Shown one piece after another: positions 11,560-63,200 of a stretch of DNA of 64,000 bases; position 1 is the stretch's first letter, and every line of letters begins with the position of its first letter. This DNA is from Liolophura sinensis. Its lineage: Eukaryota > Mollusca > Polyplacophora > Chitonida > Chitonidae. The stretch spans positions 23,481,608 through 23,545,607 of the forward strand of contig NC_088300.1 of assembly GCF_032854445.1 (NCBI RefSeq). Reading direction: 5' to 3'. The position numbers and the translations under genes are program-made. The notes under the pieces were generated by a model. The model was not told the DNA's origin. It worked only from the letters and a program-made list of their open reading frames with translations, and did no database searches.

Positions 11560-11745
11560 GTATCTGAATAATGTTTATGTCCACTGAAAGAATACCATTC
11601 AAAGTATCTTAAACCAGCATTGAATATTTTTTTTAGATTTTTTCAAACCCAGTAAAAGTTTAGTGAAACTTCGTCATGACAGAGCTTCAGCGAGTCTCCA
11701 TTATCGAAAGCAAGGTGACGTCATGTTTACTCTAGCTCTCGAACG
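11560..11745. repeat. Left part of a dispersed repeat (second copy at 59320-59520)
   Basis: Long matching runs with 59320-59520, e.g. AATGTTTATGTCCACTGAAA, AAAGTATCTTAAAC, CAGTAAAAGT, GTGAAACTTCGTC, GTCTCCATTATCGA and TCATGTTTACTCTAGCT. The homology stops at about 11745 and resumes at about 13872. Confidence 0.85.
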
Positions 11746-13871
11746 ATCAACTTATTGTATTATGTATTATTTGATGATTTGGCAATAATTGAAGAGTTTT
11801 CACTCCCTGAGTTAAAACAAGCTCTTTCAGCTAAGAAGGACTCTTCTCCTGGAGAAGACCATACAAGGTACTCAATGATTACGAACTTGTCAGATAAATG
11901 TCTGAACGTTTTGTTAGTTCTGTACAATTCTGTGTGGAATAAAATGTATCTCCCCTTAACATGGAAGAGGGCAATTGCCAAACCTGGAAAAAACACATCG
12001 TTTCCACCATCATACCGACCAACTGCACTGACGTCTTGCCCTTGTAAAGTCTTGGAGACTATGGTGAATCCCAGGTTGGCTTGGTTTCTGACCAAAAAAC
12101 AACATTTATTCGCCCACCCAAAGCGGATTTCAAGCTAACAGAAGCACCACTGATCATATTATAACACTTGAGTCAACCTTTCTTAGATCCTTGGCCAATA
12201 AATAGTCCGTCTTTGCACTTTTCTTGGACATCGTGAGAGCTTATGATATGACATGGAAACACGGTTTCCATGTCATATGGAGACAGAAGCCGTAATCCTC
12301 ATAAACAAGAGGTTACTACCTTCCATGTTGGTATATCTGAATGGTAGTGAGGTTAAGATTGTACAATAATTTCATTATTTGGGTGTTTTGTTTGACTCTA
12401 AACTTACTTTAAATGCTCATGTAAATTCCATTGCAGCAAAATCTCAGAAAGCTCTCAATCTGATGAGAGCTGTATCTGGGAAAGGTTGGGGCGCTGACAC
12501 TTATTGTCTATTGTTAATGTATCGAGCGCTTATTCGGTCACGGTTAGATTATGGATGTAAAGCCTACGATTCTGCCCGTGCTTCAGTTACCGCTAAGCTT
12601 GACAGTATTTGACGTTCAGCGCTTCGTGTTAAAACGCTTAAAACAACTCCATTAAATGTACTTCAATATATATGTAATGAATGGCCTCTTTTTGTTCGAA
12701 AACATTTTCGATCACTGTAATTTGTTGTAGTTGATGGCTTCACATGGGAACTCAGCAACGGACATTTTCAGACCATCTTATTATGATATTCTGCTTGAAG
12801 GTACAAGAAGAAAAAGAGAGCCCTTTAGTGTACTAGCGAAATATATGTACGACACAATGCAGATCTCCGGCATTCAAATCTGGTACAATTTTATTCCTGC
12901 TTTCCTCCATGGAAGTTAAGTCTACCGAATATTTCACAAGTGTCACACAGAGAAGTGAAAAAGTCAGATAACTGCGAGTTTGTCTCCCTTTTCTCTAGAG
13001 ATTATATTGCCTGAACGTGGAGCCACTATCTACAGGTTTTTACAGATGCCTCAAAGTGCCCGGATACTGACAAAACCGTTTGTGCATTTTGTGTCCCAGA
13101 AATTTCACCATAGTAAGGCGTTTAGACTTACGGATGCAGTATCGGTATTTACTGTTAAATTGACTGGGGCTCGTTGTGCGTTGCATTTTTTAGCAGATTT
13201 TAAGCCAGCAAGAGCCGTTATCTTCACGGGATTCTGTAAGTGCGATACTTGCTTTAAAGAAGTTTACGCCAAGAAAAGGTTCTCCAATCATTTTTGATAT
13301 ACTTCATTTATGTACCTGTTTATTCTACCAAGGTGTGGAAATCTGTTTTGAGTGGGTCCCAGGCCGTTCTATTACTTGCAGGTAATGAATGAGCGGACAA
13401 GCTAGCGAATCAAGCGCTGTCTTATTTACATATTGCTCAACATGTGTCTGTGTCTGTTTGGGAAGCAATATCTATATTTAAGTTTAAAGAATTTTGTTTC
13501 AATTTGGCAGGAAGACTGGGACACCTCCATTAAAGGGATGTATTTTTATAACGTTAATAATAGTGTTTCTAATTCTCACCTTGTTAGCCTTTCTTCCAGG
13601 CGAGCAGAAATCCTATGCAACAGATTGAGGACCGAGCACATTCAAACGAATTCTTATTTAAACAGACCCCCGAGAAGTCTGCTAGAGTCTTCCAAGATAC
13701 AGTAAGCTTCCTGCCTCCGTTTGTTAGGAGAAAATTTAGAGTATAGTTCATTCTCATCTCCATGTTATAATGCATTAATGTGAACACTACTTGGTTTCAG
13801 CACTGATCGTGGCGTGCATCATTCATTAGCATGGAAACACCATTAAACCAACTACCACCAATCACCACGTT
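11746..13871 (+). mobile_element. 5'-truncated LINE of the I superfamily (RT plus RNase H), inactive
   Basis: Translating 11755-12138 gives a reverse-transcriptase N-terminal part: KDSSPGED, then NLSDKCLNVLL, SYRPTALTSCPCKVLE and MVNPRL. At 12200-12250 F-L-D-I-V-R-A-Y-D is the motif A region. 12379-12612 reads GVLFDSKLTLNAHVNSIAAK and YRALIRSRLDYG, the thumb region. The catalytic motif with two adjacent Asp is absent between these, so an internal deletion is inferred. 13030-13440 encodes, with frameshifts, an RNase H domain (F-T-D-A-S-K; then G-N-E-stop-A-D-K-L-A-N-Q-A). RT followed by RNase H is typical of I-superfamily LINEs. Stops and frame changes show it is dead. Boundaries come from comparison with the uninterrupted paralogue at 59.5 kb. 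Confidence 0.85.
12246..12278. repeat. Perfect 15-bp inverted repeat with 3-nt loop
   Basis: ATATGACATGGAAAC, loop ACG, GTTTCCATGTCATAT. It sits inside the dead LINE where the catalytic RT segment is missing. Confidence 0.95.
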
Positions 13872-45500: not shown

Positions 45501-47228
45501 CTTATGTTTTTCAAGACATTTGAAATTACGCCTGCATGTGCCTTTGACAGTATTTAGTTGTCATCCTTGGTCTAATCAAAGAAAAACGTCTGTGCATTAT
45601 ACTAGCATTTTACATTTGGTCATACTAGTGAAAATATAGTGTTTCAACATTATCTCAAGATGTTTTACTTTTACTCAAGCCCTAATATCTTTGTGAAAGT
45701 GTAAAAAAAGTTATTTTAGTATTTGCTCAATGCAAATGTCTATATCTTACGTTGATGCTGAAGTCATTGTTTGAGCATAGGATGAGCCGCCGACTGAACC
45801 TGAGTGTGGTGTGTGTACCGTTCTGGGAGCCGCTCAATAGGTTGTAGTCAGACATCATGTCAACGACAGGCTCAAACTTCCCGGGGGCAAAGCGGTCCTG
45901 AAAAAAAAAAAAACACTGAGTAGTTAATCTCATGGTTTGTTTCCCAAAATAGTTATTTAATATAAATGTGGATGGAGTTTACCAATAGAGAAAACTGTAC
46001 AAAAGTGACAAACTTCACTCTAAGAACCAATTTGGTAAACTCACAAGGCAAATATATCATTATAAAACTATGAAGGTGCACTGCGAGGAGTTTGAAGCTG
46101 AACTGATCATCATTCTCTTGCTCTGCATGCATGAGTAAAACTTAAAAGAAAAGAGCGCTTATATAACTTATATCTTAAATGAAAGCGTTAACAGATTACA
46201 CGTCATGGTGCTTAGCTTTGCCCAGTAGCTATTCGGGACATGGCATTCCAGGCAGTTTGTATAGCTTTTCTATTTAAGTTATAGTATTGTAAGGTGTGTA
46301 TTGTTGTGTGGTGGGGTGGAGGTTGGGGTGGAGGTGGGGTGGGGTGTAGGGTGTTGTGTGGTGGGGTGGGGTGGAGGTATGGTGGAGGTGGGGGTGGAGG
46401 TGGGGTGGGGGGTGGAGGTGGGGTGGGGAGTTGTTGGGGGGAGGTGGGGCAGGGTGTATTGGTTGTGCAGGGGTAGGAGGTTATTTGAACTGGCATTTTC
46501 AAAGACTAGGTGATGCATTCGTTGACCACTGACCTACTCCTCAGATGTTCGTTGTGAAAAGGAGGTGCTTTATTAATTGACGTCACTCTACCACTTGACA
46601 TAAACCTAGTTTTTAAAACAGCCGACTCGTCTTCAAATGTTAGCAAGATTTAGTATTAGTATTAGTATTAAGTTACGGCCCTTACGTCCTTCAGCTGCAT
46701 CGCAGTGGCAGAAGATTTGACGCCAGTTCGTTGAAGAATTTACTTTTCACATTAAACACGGGAGAAGTTGAAGGACAAATGATACACAGGAACTTCAGTT
46801 TAACAACACTTAATTACAATACTGTACAACATTTTCGGCGGTTTGTACCATTACACTCACATCATATGTTTTCAAACTAGCCTTGTAACCACTTATCATT
46901 GTCAAGTTACCTGTAAATTGGCTTTTCCTGTGGCGTCCTCTACCCAGCCAGTCGCCATATCCGAGCCGGTCATATCCCCGTTGGGAGAGAACCCCAAACC
47001 TACATACCCCAGGGTCATAACCTGGACTTCAAAGGTGATTTCATTGTCGTCAAAGTCCCAGAATAAGTGGAATTTATTTCCTGGATCCAACACCACATGA
47101 TGAGGTAAGGAGTTTCCACCAATGCTATGGGCATATACCGCATAAAGGGTACAAACGATAAACACTCCCTGCGAAAGCATGTTTAACACAGATCCAGATA
47201 TGTAAGCTGCCTTGGGTTTGTACTCCAA
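39590..47228 (-). CDS. MOXD1: DBH-like copper monooxygenase (MOXD1 family), 11 exons, C-terminus incomplete
   Basis: Exons (minus strand): 47228-46911, 45897-45751, 45246-45073, 44629-44546, 44058-43882, 43284-43182, 42802-42636, 41919-41731, 41340-41281, 40673-40546, 39773-39590. All junctions are GT-AG and the phases join to 577 codons; human MOXD1 is about 613. Residues 1-34 are a signal peptide. A DOMON domain follows (about 40-200: FWDFDDNE, GYVGLGFS, GSDMATGW), then both copper-monooxygenase domains. Copper ligands are all present: His255/256 (VHHIILHAC), His326 (EVHYDNP), His407/409 (HSHLAG) and Met482 (EEMC). The family hydroxylates small substrates with ascorbate and oxygen in the secretory pathway; the substrate of MOXD1 is unknown. 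The last donor is consensus GTAAGT, but no following exon is certain; reading through it gives VSLNY and a stop. The assignment is strong; the choice between MOXD1 and dopamine beta-hydroxylase rests on recalled sequences, notably the L-S-T-R-x-E-M-C segment. Confidence 0.95.
40207..40388. mobile_element. MITE-like element with terminal inverted repeats
   Basis: The left end TGAGTGATGGTAGAATGTAT TCTGCTATTGCAGCAG is matched by the complement of the right end, TAAGTGATGCTAGAAAGTAT TCTGTTATTATAACAC. About 35-45 bp are inverted with roughly three-quarters identity around an AT-rich centre. It lies in the last intron of the MOXD1-like gene. Confidence 0.55.
40393..40410. repeat. Perfect 18-bp palindrome
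   Basis: TCTGTTAAATTTAACAGA, followed by T9 and GAGTGA just outside the MITE-like element. Confidence 0.9.
41468..41590 (-). repeat. SINE family 1 fragment in a MOXD1 intron
   Basis: ACGAATATTTCACTTATGCA, GTGGTGGGAGGAAACCGAGC and GACCTTCCCACGTACGGCCG, diverged. It lies between exons 8 and 9 of the copper monooxygenase gene. Confidence 0.85.
42948..43068 (+). repeat. SINE family 1, 3' part
   Basis: GGTTTCCCCCGGGCTCTGGC, TATAAGTGAAATATTTTTGA and GCGGCGTAAAACACCAATCA, then an AATAAATAAA tail. Located in the intron between exons 6 and 7. Confidence 0.88.
43330..43425 (+). repeat. SINE family 1, 3' part, strongly diverged
   Basis: AGCTGACCGCCGTAGCATAA GTGAAAAGTATGGCGTTAAA, CTCCAATCAATTAAGTAAAT. 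An older copy in the intron between exons 5 and 6. Confidence 0.7.
46290..46480. repeat. G-rich (GGGGTGGAGGTG)n low-complexity tract
   Basis: Repeated GGTGGGGTGG and GGAGGT phrases on the plus strand; the transcribed RNA of the MOXD1-like gene would carry C-rich repeats here. It lies in the first intron. Proline- or glycine-rich open frames across it are compositional. Confidence 0.9.
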
Positions 47229-48505
47229 GCTCGAGGTTCTGGTCTATACACCTGACGGGTAAAGGACTGTTCACCCAGGGGAACACGTGACGAACACACC
47301 TTGTATAACCTGGCTAAGGTCGGACATTGAGCAGTTCTAATGAAAAGGGTAGACCTTACAATGATAGACTCAAACATCCGGGTGAGTAAGGCTCGCAAAA
47401 CAAGACACAGACAAATTCTTTCAGCATGTATTATAATATATGTATGTAACCACAGACCAAGAAGTTTATTATTGGTATAGCAGCAAGCGAACTTTTTATA
47501 TTATTTATTTATTTATTTATTAACGTATTAAATAATTAATTAATCTATTTATTCAGTAAGTTGTTTATATTGTCGCTATTTGACTCCATATACAAGAATA
47601 TTTTGACGGCGGTCAATTATTACTAGTCCGCGCTCATGTTCCCGCCTTTATGAAACTGCAGCGTTGAGTGCAGAAAGTAGAACGGCTGGGTGACGGTTTC
47701 TCGTTCCCTGTCACACTGACCGCACACGAGAGCAGATACGCTTTACTGAAGTTAGACAATGCACTGTCTGACACTTGGCAGTGATCGGTTTTTCCACATG
47801 GTGACTTGAACTTCGTGTGTAAACACAGCCATTCGTTACAGATAAATATGCACGTACAGTATATCCTTGCCGCCAAGACTGAAATCTCATGCGTGATTTT
47901 TGGAACCGAGGAAATAAATTGTCAATATATTAATATATGTCAATATTCATTAAAAAAAGTCTGTTGTCTTATCTTTTGTCTTCTCCTTATGTGTTTCTCC
48001 ACGCTCAAGTAACAAAATAAATACACAAAAATCAATAAATGACATATTTGGAATCTAAACAAGATGGAAGTTCCCCGGTGTGAAAAGTAGGCTCTTCAAT
48101 GAATTAACGTTACCTGACTCCCCGTGCAATTTAAGTCCGAATGTCTCTCAAGTCCCTAACGAGGATGGGGACATGGATTGCTATGCGCACTCCGGATTGC
48201 TAATGCCCATAAATCTAATCGACGTCGCATATGTGGAAAAATTATGAGTACTTCGGGTGTGTACACCGTGAAATCGGGGGACCTCTTGTGTACTTCTGCT
48301 ACGCAGATCCACAACAGGGTTGTGAAGTTCCTTGGTGTTCTCCACGTTTCTCGTATAACCCACAAACGCATCCTGTTCAATCTGTAGTTGACATGTTGCT
48401 TGAAATCTGTACTCAAGCAACTTATCCGACATCGATCTCACTTAATGCTCACTAGAAAATAGTGTGTCGTTCGACTGGTCTGTTGACACTACATGTACCT
48501 ATCTC
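47229..48505. other. Upstream flank of the MOXD1-like gene
   Basis: Expected to hold its promoter and 5' untranslated region; I cannot place a TATA box or start site securely. Open frames at 48156-48455 overlap on both strands and match nothing I know. Confidence 0.35.
47500..47522. repeat. (TTTA)n microsatellite
   Basis: Five TTTA units about 270 bp upstream of the MOXD1-like start codon. Confidence 0.9.
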
Positions 48506-54221: not shown

Positions 54222-57200
54222 TTAAATTTTGCCTTTGGCAGCCAGTCTGTCTTTCTGCAAAGAGACAAAATAGAGGAAAAGGGAGGCGATGAATACTTTT
54301 TTCAGCATATAACATATCTAATCAGTCTTTTCCTGTTCAAAGTCATACCTATGGGGAATATGGCCTTCTTGTTGTACACAGGTAGCTTAACACAACATTC
54401 TGCCTAGAGCTGAGTGATTGGTGTTAACGGACTGCTCAAGAATTATTCCCTTTAAAGGCAGACAAAACACTACAATGAAGCATACATGTATATCAGATAA
54501 AATACCATTCAACATTATCCAGTAAAATCATTTCTATACAGCAGATTCTGCGGATGTCTGTAGTGATCCAGAGGGTATCAGTAAATCTTGGTGATTCTTG
54601 AACACAGATGGCAGGACAGAGATGCCTGACCAATAACAGTATTTATGCACCTTTCAAGCTGAAAAGTTTACAGTAAAAGAAATTAATGCATGATTAAAGC
54701 AAAAATAACATCTTACCAATCCACCTGCTTTCTTGGCCCTTGTAGTTGGGGTTATTTTTGATTTCTTCTCTTCCCGAATTTTCTTCACCTTGTTTTGAGC
54801 TTCTCTGCATCTGCAAGGAGATACCACCATGTTATAATATCTCACGTCTTGATGTAACAGGTTTAGTGACAATGTTCACATGCTCTCATAACTTGTGCTA
54901 TAATATCTCACATCTTGATGTAACAGGTTTAGTGACAATGTTCACATGCTCTCATAACTTGTGCTATAATATCTCACGTCTTGATGTAACAGGTTTAGTG
55001 ACAATGTTGACATGCTCTCATAACTTGTGCTATAATATCTCACATCTTGATGTAACAGGTTTAGTGACAATGTTCACATGCTCTCATAACTTGTGTTATA
55101 ATATCTCACATCCTGATGTAACAGGTTTAGTGACAATGTTGACATGCTCTCATAACTTGTGCTATAATATCTCAAGTCTTGATGTAAAAGGTTTAGTGAC
55201 AATGTTCACATGCTCTCATAACTTGTGCTATAATATCTCACGTCTTGATGTAACAGGTTTAGTGACAATGTTGACATGCTCTCATAACTTGTGTTATAAT
55301 ATCTCACATCTTGATGTAACAGGTTTAGTGACAATGTTGACATGCTCTCATAACTTGTGCTATAATGTCTCAAGTCTTGATGTAACAGGTTTAGTGACAA
55401 TGTTCACATGCTCTCATAACTTGTGTTATAATATCTCACATCTTGATGTAACAGGTTTAGTGACAATGTTGACATGCTCTCGTAACTTGTGCTATAATAT
55501 CTCAAGTCTTAATGTAACAGGTTTAGTGACAATGTTGACATGCTCTCATAACTTGTGCTATAATATCTCAAGTCTTGTTGTCAGAGGTTTAGTGACAATG
55601 TTCACATGCTCTCATAACTTGTGCTATAATATCTCACGTCTTGATGTAACAGGTTTAGTGACAATGTTGACATGCTCTCATAACTTGTGCTATAATATCT
55701 CAAGTCTTGTTGTCAGAGGTTTAGTGACAATGTTCACATGCTCTCATAACTTGTGTTATAATATCTCACGTCTTGATGTAACAGGTTTAGTGACAATGTT
55801 GACATGCTCTCGTAACTTGTGCTATAATATCTCAAGTCTTAATGTAACAGGTTTAGTGACAATGTTGACATGCTCTCATAACTTGTGCTATAATATCTCA
55901 AGTCTTGTTGTCAGAGGTTTAGTGACAATGTTGACATGCTCTCGTAACTTGTGCTATAATATCTCAAGTCTTAATGTAACAGGTTTAGTGACAATGTTGA
56001 CATGCTCTCATAACTTGTGCTATAATATCTCAAGTCTTGTTGTCAGAGGTTTAGTGACAATGTTCACATGCTCTCATAACTTGTGCTATAATATCTCACG
56101 TCTTGATGTAACAGGTTTAGTGACAATGTTCACATGCTCTCATAACTTGTGCTATAATATCTCAAGTCTTGTTGTCAGAGGTTTAGTGACAATGTTCACA
56201 TGCTCTCATAACTTGTGTTATAATATCTCACGTCTTGATGTAACAGGTTTAGTGACAATGTTGACATGCTCTCATAACTTGTGTTATAATATCTCACGTC
56301 TTGATGTAACAGGTTTAGTGACAATGTTCACATGCTCTCATAACTTGTGTTATAATATCTCACGTCTTGATGTAACAGGTTTAGTGACAATGTTGACATG
56401 CTCTCATAACTTGTGCTATAATATCTCAAGTCTTGTTGTCAGAGGTTTAGTGACAATGTTGACATGCTCTCATAACTTGTGCTATAATATCTCACGTCTT
56501 GATGTAACAGGTTTAGTGACAATGTTGACATGCTCTCATAACTTGTGTTATAATATCTCACGTCTTGATGTAACAGGTTTAGTGACAATGTTGACATGCT
56601 CTCATAACTTGTGCTATAATATCTCAAGTCTTGTTGTCAGAGGTTTAGTGACAATGTTGACATGCTCTCGTAACTTGTGCTATAATATCTCACATCCTGA
56701 TGTAACAGGTTTAGTGACAATGTTGACATGCTCTCGTAACTTGTGCTATAATATCTCACGTCTTGATGTAACAGGTTTAGTGACAATGTTGACATGCTCT
56801 CATAACTTGTGCTATAATATCTCAAATCTTGTTGTCAGAGGTTTAGTGACAATGTTGACATGCTCTCATAACTTGTACTATAATATCTCACGTCTTGATG
56901 TAACAGGTTTAGTGACAATGTTCACATGCTCTCATAACTTGTGCTATAATATCTCAAGTCTTAATGTAACAGGTTTAGTGACAATGTTGACATGCTCTCA
57001 TAACTTGTGCTATAATATCTCAAGTCTTAATGTAACAGGTTTAGTGACAATGTTGACATGCTCTCATAACTTGTGTTATAATATCTCACATCTTGATGTA
57101 ACAGGTTTAGTGACAATGTTGACATGCTCTCATAACTTGTGCTATAATATCTCACATCTTGATGTAACAGGTTTAGTGACAATGTTGACATGCTCTCATA

Positions 57201-60200
57201 ACTTGTGCTATAATATCTCAAGTCTTGTTGTCAGAGGTTTAGTGACAATGTTGACATGCTCTCATAACCTGTACTATAATATCTCAAGTCTTGTTGTCAG
57301 AGGTTTAGTGACAATGTTGACAAGCTCTCACAACTTGTTTTTAGACTAAAACTAAAATACATCTCATGACTCGATCACATGGACTACTCTGTTCCAGTTT
57401 TTTTTCTGTATTAAAGTACTAGTACCTCTAGTACAGTTTCTGTCACCAAACTCCTGCTTTTGATATAATACCAAAAATAGCTATAAGCAATATGAAGAGG
57501 TATGCGGCCTTCTTAAGAAGAAGTAGTAGTTCTTCCATGTAGAAGGAGGGTATAAGGGAGGAAAACACCAGAGGTGACATTTAACCCATACCAGTTGACT
57601 GGTACTGTACAGTTACATGTGCCTACTTCTAATAACTGAAGTTAACAGAACCATTTTCTCCCAAATGACTTACTCAGCACCAATGACTGATTTATTTATT
57701 TGGAATATTCAAATTACGTGACAGCCTTCTTGGTTTGTGGAAGACATCAAATACATAAATACATATTTCCCAAAGGAAATAGACCTTGACCAACAACCTT
57801 ACAGTTTACACTTCTCCTCAGAGAAAATCTCACCTCTGTTTAACCACTTTCTGTTGCTCCCTCTTCCATAAATCTTTAAAGTCTGAGGTGAATGATGTCC
57901 ACAAGGAGAAGAAGGTTTCTGGAGACACTTCAGTTTCTCCTGATCTAGGCGACACGCAGTAAAATACCGCGAGCTCTCCAAACCTGAATAAAAACATAAA
58001 TACAGTAACACACTGACAGCTCAACATAGAGTAATATATGTGCATTTACAGAAAACACTAACAACTCAATAACTATAATAACTTGTAACATAATTACAAG
58101 TTTTTGATCATTTCATATTTTTAACAGTCCTTGTGTGGACACTCTGAGACCTTGTATCTAAACCTGATACAGTAAAATACCTCAAGTTCCCAAAATATTA
58201 ACTCACTAACATATTACAACAAAAATAAAAAATCACCATTCTACCCTGCTGTTAGTTGCAGGCCCTGTGCAAATATACATATTAAATAGAGATGACCTTT
58301 CAAATAACATCAAATGTGTCACGCAACACACCTGCCGGTACATTTACCTCCCCAAATAATATCATTCCACGCTGTTTATTTCTACAAATAAAAAAATTTG
58401 AGTTTGTTTGTTAGATTTGCTTTTATGTTTAATACAAAGGCGAACTATAGAAATTTCCTACAGTAATAAAAGTGTTGATTATTTTGTACAGTTTATCGAC
58501 ATCACTTTTGATTTTACATTTTTAAACCCAGAGCCTATGATGTGGAAAAAACTCATTTGTTTTATGACGTTCCAATCTAAGCTCAGAGGTATGATGTCAT
58601 AATACATGTACAGTAAACTTCTACATTCCTACGTCACACAACAATAAGAAACGATGTCACACATATGCAGCTTTGAGGCAGCTAGGTCAACTGCAGTGGC
58701 CTAAGCTTATCGCTGATTGGTCTAAAAGCATCACCATCACCAAGCATCACAAAAATGGCAGTATGAAATATGCCATTTTTTCTTCATTTATGCACATTTT
58801 CTTCATTTTCTGGGACAGAATAAACACCTTCGTCATAGTGTTTGTTGTGTAATCCAAGACCCCTGGCCCTTATTTTATACCTCAAAATCCTCAAATTTGA
58901 CTCGGTACAAAACACCGTTCAGTGGTATAGGGATATGCAACCAATCTTATTGCATGGCATTTTAAATAACATGTCAGGATGGAACACAGATCTGCGTGAA
59001 TTAGTTGCTTTAAAAAACTAAAACATTTATGTAATTATATGTGGCTAAATTACATATACATATGCATTTCGGTGTATTATTTGTACATTTCAACAGCTAC
59101 ATGTATTAGTTTTAATTTACAAGGAGGTCCACAAAAGCCCTCCACAAAGGGAAGCAAACCTTGATTAACTGTGCCCTCTACCAACTAAAATAACAATAAC
59201 AGTGATTTCAATAACAATACATGCTATCATGAACAACCATAGTTGTTGTTATTAGGCAAAGGTCATGAGATGTAAGATTTGTCTCCCTTTGTATTAGGTT
59301 GGTTAAAGCGAAAAACAGTACCTGACTAATGTTTATGTCCACTGAAAGATTACCATCCAAAGTATCTTAAACAGGCATTATATATTTTTTTTCGTTTTTC
59401 TAAAAACCCAGTAAAAGTCTGGTGAAACTTCGTCTTCACACAGCTTCGGCATGTCTCCATTATCGACAGTAAGGTGACTTCATGTTTACTCTAGCTTTCT
59501 AACATCAAAGATATTTTCTGTATCATTGTCAAAGCAGTAGCCTATGGCAGATAAAAGGTGTGGACTTCGGCAATGAATGTTCAACTGATAAATAGCTTTC
59601 TTGGAAACTTCTTCCACTGTTTGAACTGTGATAAAGTAAGCCTATGGCTGATCTATATGCTTCCAAGATGAGAGCAGTGCTGACCTAGTTATCGTGGATG
59701 TCAGGGAAAGCACCTCGCCTTCAACATAGCGTTTCAATAGTTTTACTGTATTTTATAAAAGAAAACAGGCCTTGTATATGAAAAAGACAAAGAAGCAAAA
59801 TTTAAATTCTACAATTCTAATAAATTTAGAGAAAAAATAATTATTTCACGAGCATTCATTAATTTTAAGCATTGTCCAGTGCGATGCCATCTTATTCCCA
59901 TAAACCTTCGTCATCCCTAATGAATCTTTCACTGACTCTGATATTTGTTATTTATAAAATGCTGACTAAACACTAAAATGAGCAACAAAACATGTATTTG
60001 AATAATTTGAACAGTGTGTCTAAGTAGGCCTTGGGTTTACACAGGAGATGAATGCGGTGTGACATAATTTGTGATACCGTCGTTGAATATTACATGGCTT
60101 GTAAATCAACCACTTGTACATCAGTGGTGATCTGTAAACAGTACACACCTAGCCCACAACACTGTGTGAAATGGCCCTTTGGCTACACGAAACTTAATCG

Positions 60201-63200
60201 CTGTAAATGATTTCAAAATGATATCTTATGCAGTAGTTTTGTGTTATCATACGTCACCTCATGGAGTGAATGGATAAAGGCTACCACACATCTTAGGTCG
60301 CTCAATCTGATAGCAACATGTTTGATTGGATAAAATTTCCAAGATGTCTGCCTCGATTCACCACAGCCATTTGTGCCTTTTGTTCTATACGTTAATTGGT
60401 GAAATCTCACTGAAATAATAAAGTATGATACTTTTTAGACAGCTTGAGAATCCTGCTTTCCACTGAAGTATGTTTTAGCCAGGTACTGTCTTGTCCTTTA
60501 AACTTTATCATAGCAGACTCTACTCTATTTATATCTTACAATGTTTTGCATTCCTGAACATTCTCCTCTTGATCAGTAATGTCCTGTGAAGCTGAAATGA
60601 AGAATACGATAAAGGCAATGCATAAGTAACATTATCACAAACACATACAAATATTACACACATCAGAATGTTTCTTTCTGTTCGAGTTATGCTAAAGTTC
60701 TTAAATTTCATTAGATAATTATTATTCAGTACACATTCATAGATTATCGAACAAATGAATTCAAAGCTGGGTAAACTGACATTTGTACCAGAACATGTAC
60801 CATGTATGACAACAACAACAAACAAAGTTCTAAATTACACATCATATATGAACACTTACCCTTGGTAAAAAATGTTGTCATGATAGATTTGAAGGGCTCC
60901 AGATACTGTTCACTAGAACTTGAAATTATTTTCTCAGACTTTCGTTGACAGCCTACAGAAAAACAGATGAAGTCAAATGTGTTGTGGTATATCATACAGC
61001 TAAAGATATTCCCAGGCTTGGAAACTGTGTTATTTTGCAATTTGTCTCAAGACCACAGAAAATTTGCCATGGCGGATATCTAAATCGATTTCAAGTACAA
61101 GTACACTGATATATATGATCATATATAAAATTACACTGCACATTTTAACAATATTTACTAACACTTTTTTTAAATACTTCCTCAGCCTACAACATTTGAG
61201 TAATCACTTGTCAAGAAATTCATCATTTCAATGTCACTTCTTTTCAGAAAACTTCACAAAATTGTTTTACATGAGATATTACGGTTTTTATCACCTTCTA
61301 AGTTTGTTTTAAGTTTCCCAATCTCAGCTTCAACTTCATCAAACTTAACAAGAGCTGCCTGTCGAATGTCACTGGGGTCAGGAAGGGGAAGCTTGACCTT
61401 GTCAGTACCAGCATCATCCTTCTCAAACCTGCTCACGTATTGTGTCACCACATACTGAAGTAAGCTCACATGGTTATCCTGGACAGTAAACAGAACAGAC
61501 AAAGAGAGAAATTCAACATGTGGAGCTCTTCTGTACCGACATTGTCCTTCTCAAACCTGCTCACGTACTGTGTCACCACATAGTTCACATGGTTATCCTG
61601 GACAGCAAACAGAACAGACAAAGAGAGAAATTCAACATGTGGAGCTCTTCTGTACCAACATTGTCCTTCTCAAACCTGCTCACGTACTGTGTCACCACAT
61701 AGTTCACATGGTTATCCTGGACAGCAAACAGAACAGACAAAGAGAGAAATTCAACATGTGGAGCTCTTCTGTACCAACATTGTCCTTCTCAAACTTACTC
61801 ACATATTGTGTCGCCGGTACTGAAGTAAGCTCACATGGTTATCCTGGACAGCAAAGGGAATTGGAAAAGAGATACATTCAACATGTGGAGCTCTTCTGTA
61901 CCGACATTGTTCTTCTCAAACTTACTCACATATTGTGTCGCCGCATACTGAAGTAAGCTCACATGGTTATCCTGGACAGCAAAGGGAATAGGAAAAGAGA
62001 TACATTCAACATGTGGAGCTTTTCTGTAAGAGAACTGTCTAATGTATTGCTGCACCACATGCTGAAGTATTAAAGCTCCCACAGTTATTCTGGATGGTAA
62101 AGAAGACAAGACATATATTCAACAATTTAGCTTGTCAGTGCATCATACTTCTTAATTAAATGTGCTCAGGTATATCGTTAACAACAACTTTTCACAAACC
62201 TGTCCACCTGTCTCACATGTTTCATTGTAGTAGAGAAGAAGTTCCTCTCACAATGAGTTCTGACTTGATATAGCTTCAAACAAATGACCCTTGCTACCAC
62301 CAATCCACTTCAATTCCCTTACCTTACTCTTCACATCTTTGAGTTTAGCTAGGATGTCCAATCCGAATCCATCTGCCTGGCCCCCTTTGACCATTCCCTA
62401 GGAAAAAGAATTACATGCATTTCTACATGAACATGTATGTACATATCTGTCATGCAAAATGTCATGTAACAGCTGTTAAAAGAAGTCACATGATCATTTC
62501 CTTAGTTAGACTTTTTGGAACAAAGTGACAAACCTGCACTGCTGGGTTTTTCATTATAAACAGGAAAACATTTATTGTTACTTGTTACAGGTCACCATCT
62601 CTTTGCTTTTTTAACATAACTGTAACTTAACTGTGACGTAACATACTTTAATTCTTCTTGTCTTAGAACCTTGTCCAGCTTAAGTAACAACAGCACCAAA
62701 GCTGAAAAATTACCTCCATTCATGTAATTTCCTAGAGCCAAAATTATTCCCAAAATGTTCTTGATGCTGTTGCCTGACATCAGTGTCTGTAAAAGGAATC
62801 AGATGAGTCTGTAAGGGTTTAAAAATACTGTAAAACATTATATGTACATGTAATATATTTGAACTTCCCCCTCCCCCCACCTCTAAATCGAGGCATGAGT
62901 ACTGGTGTGAAAGAATTCAGATTTTAAATAAATCTTTCCTCAAAACAGAGTTGTCCTCCCTTCCCTGAAATTATGCAGGACAAAGTATTTGGTGTAATCA
63001 AGAGTGTCTGAATGTAGTCTGTGATACACATACAAGTGAGAGATAACCTACATAGAAGCTTACCTCACATGTCATTTTCAAGTTGTTCAGCTTATTATCA
63101 ATGGCTGACACATTTTCCTGAAAAGTGGAGTGAAATATGAAACAGAAGATTCGGTCTGCATAGTTTGGAATCTGGGACATATCGTAAAGAAACCTGCAAA

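Follow-up and report, generated by a model that had tools for sequence, protein, structure and literature searches.

A probable mirage-type minisatellite on the edge of an FH2 exon in a chiton formin gene

Why does an intron of a formin gene in the chiton Liolophura sinensis contain five extra beginnings of the FH2 exon that follows it, each behind its own splice acceptor, and do they matter for splicing? We analysed a 64,000-nt stretch of DNA (the window) whose minus strand, from 64000 to ~58000, carries FH2 exons of this gene and, by eye, its C-terminal end; the proline-rich FH1 segment and more exons lie in the adjoining stretch of the contig. A joined reading of seven exons, with an X placed at a frame break, matched PF02181 with an E value of 9.9e-50 (170.1 bits, cut-off 34.8), and the solved structures matching it best were DAAM1 (6.2e-24) and diaphanous 1. 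The exons of this gene were absent from the 28 matches of a whole-genome FH2 search in which exons were scored singly. We take the gene to resemble the FMN (Formin-1/2, Cappuccino) subtype. The real exon at the edge of the array, here called E0, is the sole site matching the full exon peptide and has its donor GT at 61294 (Table 1). The donor of the FH2 exon upstream, with a consensus score of 11.27 (99.9th percentile of GT sites), could pair with E0 or, in principle, with the acceptors of the copies.

Table 1 Coordinates of the array units and of the FH2 exons on either side of the intron
Feature	Position	Strand	Remarks
E0, real FH2 exon	61295–61478	−	184 nt; open frame and FH2 homology
Intron-derived part before E0	61479–61524	−	46 nt; pyrimidine tract and CAG; equivalents precede c1–c5
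c1, exon-derived part	61525–61597	−	73 nt; 9-nt in-frame deletion relative to E0; AG just upstream
c2, exon-derived part	61644–61716	−	73 nt; near-identical to c1
c3, exon-derived part	61763–61843	−	81 nt; 1-nt deletion; donor-like GTGAGT at 61802
c4, exon-derived part	61890–61971	−	82 nt; donor-like GTGAGT at 61929
c5, exon-derived part	62018–62089	−	72 nt; diverged; 14-nt deletion
c6, likely decayed copy	62131–62189	−	In register with the intron part of c5; E0-type unit end
Upstream FH2 exon	62323–62397	−	75 nt; donor GT at 62322

A tandem array with a period of 119 (5.0 copies, 90% matches) spans 61405–62028. The first ~81 nt of E0 form its 3′-most unit, and upstream of these lie five copies (c1–c5), with spacings of 119, 119, 127 and 128 nt in the array. 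Each unit of 119–128 nt combines 46 nt of intron end, holding a pyrimidine tract and a CAG acceptor, with 72–82 nt of exon start. The original prediction had described five copies that keep the acceptor and the start of the exon and lack its second half, and on both counts it was borne out: the exon-derived parts correspond to 24–27 codons, and 5/5 copies continue from there into the intron part of the next unit. The acceptor positions it gave were correct at 61478, 61597, 61716, 61843 and 61971, while the most distal one lies at 62089 rather than 62090. Even c5 stood out from chance: its alignment scored 26.5, and the best of 5000 shuffles scored 19.5. When the E0 peptide was searched against the chiton's own genome, the matches were E0, c1, c2 and c4 only, the copies matching residues 1–29 of 62; c3 and c5 were not reported by this search. 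Whole-exon tandem duplication and mutually exclusive exons were rejected, as all five copies end after the exon start.

Identity peaks between neighbouring copies and the distal end of the array is decayed. The copies c1 and c2, already flagged as nearly identical, differ at 1 of 119 compared positions (1/73 in the exon part, 0/46 in the intron part) and have the 9-nt deletion in common, while c3 and c4 differ at 4 of 127 positions plus one 1-nt gap and c5 is 66–73% identical to the other copies. With gaps left out, the exon part is 84–89% identical to that of E0 in c1–c4 and 73% in c5; for the intron part, the corresponding values are 98% in c1 and c2, 80–83% in c3 and c4, and 68% in c5. Near-identical neighbours together with a decayed far end are as expected of unequal exchange with conversion. 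These relationships fit the earlier suggestion of a failed tandem duplication still being homogenised, except that it is the acceptor and exon start that were duplicated, with no trace of a whole exon. Judged from their sequence, the copies bear signs of lost coding constraint, namely deletions of 1 nt (c3) and 14 nt (c5), two V-to-A differences (c4) and stops in five read-throughs.

Beyond c5, the segment 62189–62131 is likely to be a sixth copy of the array (c6). Aligned to the exon start of E0, it scored 24, a value reached by none of 5000 dinucleotide shuffles and, with the same query, by none of 4892 other 190-nt pieces of the window (5000 minus-strand pieces were drawn and 108 starting in or near the array were removed). 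Significance was limited to E0 as query: 2870 of 5000 shuffles reached the score with c4 and 327 of 5000 with c1, neither of which is significant. This test used exon-part queries and a longer region, the end of which was chosen after the first alignment had been seen; an earlier test, with unit queries, a region five bases shorter and 1000 shuffles, gave p values of 0.044 (E0), 0.545 (c4) and 0.184 (c5). By eye, no acceptor was recognised in c6. Its unit ends as that of E0 does, while c1–c5 have another end in common. The E0-type end is therefore probably the ancestral one, and the array would have grown from an internal variant.

How strong the splice signals of the copies are was gauged with an approximate splice-site consensus table for donors and by pyrimidine counts alone for acceptors. 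All six acceptors (E0, c1–c5) read CAG, preceded by 11–12 pyrimidines in 15 positions in the copies and 11 in 15 in E0; as had been proposed, it is possible on this basis that the copy acceptors compete with that of E0. The copies had also been said to lack a donor. The true donor is indeed absent, but c1–c4 hold GTGAGY sites that score, by this approximate table, 6.65 (TAT/GTGAGT in c3 and c4) or 5.98 (TAC/GTGAGC in c1, c2 and also E0), next to 5.96 for the real donor of E0 (AAG/GTGATA) and 3.71–11.27 for six other inferred donors of the gene. By the same table, E0, c3 and c4 have a stronger-looking donor-like site, CAT/GTGAGC (8.42), 9 nt from their start, and a scan of c5 found no site above 3.2. 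Were the GTGAGY sites used as donors, mini-exons of 42 nt (c4, 61971–61930), 41 nt (c3), 33 nt (c2) and 33 nt (c1) are predicted. The window has 4138 GT sites on this strand, of which ~2.7% reach 6.65 and ~4.5% reach 5.98, so the donor-like sites in the copies are no proof by themselves.

Splicing to a copy acceptor followed by reading through to E0 would have a different outcome. In the phase that suits E0, a stop is met after 16 (c5), 46 (c4), 14 (c3), 43 (c2) and 43 (c1) codons. Because all five read-throughs meet a stop, an extended exon would leave the formin truncated, with no whole FH2 domain, and the idea that extended exons are useful products was not upheld. The original prediction also had an open frame running through the two most distal copies. 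Although one frame is free of stops from 62118 to 61834, splicing from the 62322 donor to 62089 leads into another frame, which meets a stop after 16 codons; the open frame is entered only by the copy at 61971, which stops after 46 codons.

Repeats of similar architecture have been described in lancelets as mirages, minisatellites lying over intron–exon boundaries, in the BflGb6 globin, Adh3 and TnC genes (PMC3087553). In BflGb6, tandem units of 150–160 bp comprise the 3′ end of an intron and the 5′ part of an exon, with 6 and 3 units in two haplotypes; the units are reported to be 81–100% identical and to evolve in concert within clusters, boundaries excluded, and many contain AG/GT signals, with RT-PCR suggesting regular splicing (PMC3087553). 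Similar repeats are described in lancelet PGBD5, where splicing is apparently undisturbed (PMC3902484). The chiton array is like these in having tandem units that span the boundary, in containing AG/GT signals (CAG in c1–c5, GTGAGY in c1–c4) and, by distance comparison, in having homogenised pairs (c1/c2 and c3/c4) that leave out c5, c6 and the E0 unit end. It is unlike BflGb6 in its host gene (a formin), its phylum (Mollusca), its unit length of 119–128 nt and its more decayed far-end copy (66–73%). Among the open-licence papers examined, repeats called mirages were lancelet cases only, two further papers using the word in unrelated senses, and the term is not universal; the chiton array would place a boundary-spanning minisatellite of this type in another phylum, the molluscs.

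Other known systems are more distant. Internal tandem repeats at exon–intron boundaries of recently duplicated human genes are reported to alter splicing and form new introns (PMC2812944); they share with the chiton array a minisatellite scale and a position over splice boundaries, but are described as having units averaging 30 bp, lying in segmental duplications and giving rise to RNA-supported new introns. Intron gain by tandem genomic duplication is described as starting from a duplicated segment that includes splice-site-like sequence (PMC3443670), whereas the chiton array duplicates an existing acceptor. We rejected such intron gain for this locus, where the copies precede the real exon and E0 is one open stretch.

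We consider it most probable (about 80%) that the array is a local and neutral mirage-type minisatellite anchored at the edge of an exon. A segment of ~128 nt, made up of 46 nt from the end of the intron, acceptor included, and ~82 nt of exon start, would have been duplicated in tandem; unequal exchange, slippage and conversion would then have turned the units over. Selection would hold E0, the sole copy with the second half of the exon and its donor, leaving the others to drift and the distal ones to decay. The array itself would do nothing that is needed, and the splicing machinery would have to ignore the copies. Under exon definition, the E0 acceptor is expected to be used in most transcripts, since its donor lies 184 nt away and the copies would need stop-bearing exons of 303–795 nt. 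Leaked transcripts that use a copy are expected to be degraded by nonsense-mediated decay. Two points speak against neutrality: the 9-nt deletion of c1 and c2 is in frame, as are the mini-exons of c1, c2 and c4. These could hint at coding use, although each has a one-in-three chance of arising in frame and c1 and c2 are not independent of each other.

Selection on E0 presupposes a working gene. The FH2 exon upstream of the array does not, as assembled, continue the frame of the preceding 73-nt, phase 0 exon, and with the TAG acceptor before 62397 the FH2 peptide is recognisable across it in two frames. This break could reflect a base-level error (coverage is 14x), a real allele or frameshift, or the use of another acceptor, and it leaves the function of the gene in this haplotype in doubt; if this gene copy is not functional, nothing need hold E0. 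By eye, splicing to an AG 13 nt further into the exon would shorten it to 62 nt and preserve the frame at a loss of ~4 residues.

The copies might instead act as regulatory decoys, their acceptors diverting transcripts into stop-containing forms or intron retention and thereby lowering formin output, with repeat number tuning expression. We regard this as unlikely. The copy acceptors do resemble that of E0 and are transcribed first, and every one of the read-throughs carries a stop; decoy exons in SF3B1 and OGT, which likewise are extra splice sites inside an intron, are reported to cause intron retention (PMC8706089), although those are described as non-coding exons tested in reporters. The reportedly undisturbed splicing of the lancelet mirages (PMC3087553, PMC3902484) points the other way, and c5 and c6, being decayed, give no indication that the copies are maintained. 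A related proposal, which we hold to be quite improbable, is that the array is a length-variable brake on the formin: repeat number would set the share of transcripts lost to stops, each added copy bringing another acceptor of similar strength that is transcribed before that of E0, and c4 (and c1 and c2) would occasionally provide in-frame mini-exons. If this were true, chitons, like lancelets, would owe some of their splicing variation to boundary-spanning minisatellites. The locus is also a natural competition assay: one intron has six acceptors of similar sequence, of which only one leads into a complete exon, and the published chiton RNA-seq could therefore reveal the extent to which exon definition overrides transcription order.

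That the copies are nascent mini-exons seems very unlikely. The GTGAGT of c4, or the GTGAGC of c1 and c2, used with the copy's own acceptor would add 14 or 11 in-frame FH2 residues; these candidate exons are stop-free, their lengths are divisible by 3, and by the approximate table their donors score no lower than the real one. Scores of that size are nonetheless unsurprising among the GT sites of the window, the c3 mini-exon is out of frame, and inserting a repeated FH2 segment would probably be harmful. We consider it equally far-fetched that the array is an assembly artefact with an inflated or wrong copy number. The near-identity of c1 and c2, a published HiFi coverage of 14x (PMC11068029) and the precedent of one lancelet mirage reported as aberrantly assembled in a draft genome (PMC3087553) would suit such an error, but c3, c4, c5 and c6 carry private substitutions and indels that a miscount of copies would not generate.

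The wider genome was consistent with a local origin. An 841-nt region covering the locus matched a single place in the assembly, in a search that skips very common words. As both this region and the E0 peptide match this locus only, the array appears to be local rather than a dispersed element, and a mobile or dispersed repeat was rejected within the reach of that search, which returned no second place. The window contains 18 merged arrays with a period of at least 15, covering 9.8% of its bases; with arrays this dense, one would occasionally be expected to fall on an exon edge. Arrays with a period of 15 or more also occur in 7 of 12 other formin loci (L002–L013), and in five of these seven the array lies 657–1266 nt from the locus's own FH2 match. 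At L013, a 62-bp array of 8.3 copies (950–1463) lies 38 nt from the FH2 match and is intronic, just beyond the exon. At L007, by eye a DAAM-like formin, only 3 nt separate the FH2 match from the end of a 30-bp array of 2.2 copies (1758–1823, minus-strand reading). The last unit of this array extends over the likely acceptor; as the unit before it has no AG, this small boundary repeat is a lead only, possibly to a second case.

Several further features were noted in passing. Opposite the array, the plus strand has a 165-codon open stretch (61459–61956) that is probably a by-product of the repeat. Another array of the window, at 54833–57338, consists of a 66-bp unit repeated 38 times; because 66 is divisible by three, the plus strand stays open there for 867 codons, and this openness is no evidence of a gene. 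On the minus strand, an exon with an open frame at 46902–47243 contains a DOMON domain (Pfam E value 3.1e-13) and presumably resembles the start of a dopamine beta-hydroxylase-like gene. A 139-codon open stretch on the plus strand (11719–12138) looks by eye like a fragment of a retrotransposon reverse transcriptase. Elsewhere in the assembly, COX1 matches occurred at seven places ~15.5 kb apart on one contig (C99; loci L019 and L020) and at one place on another (C632); C99 is probably the mitochondrial genome assembled as a concatemer.
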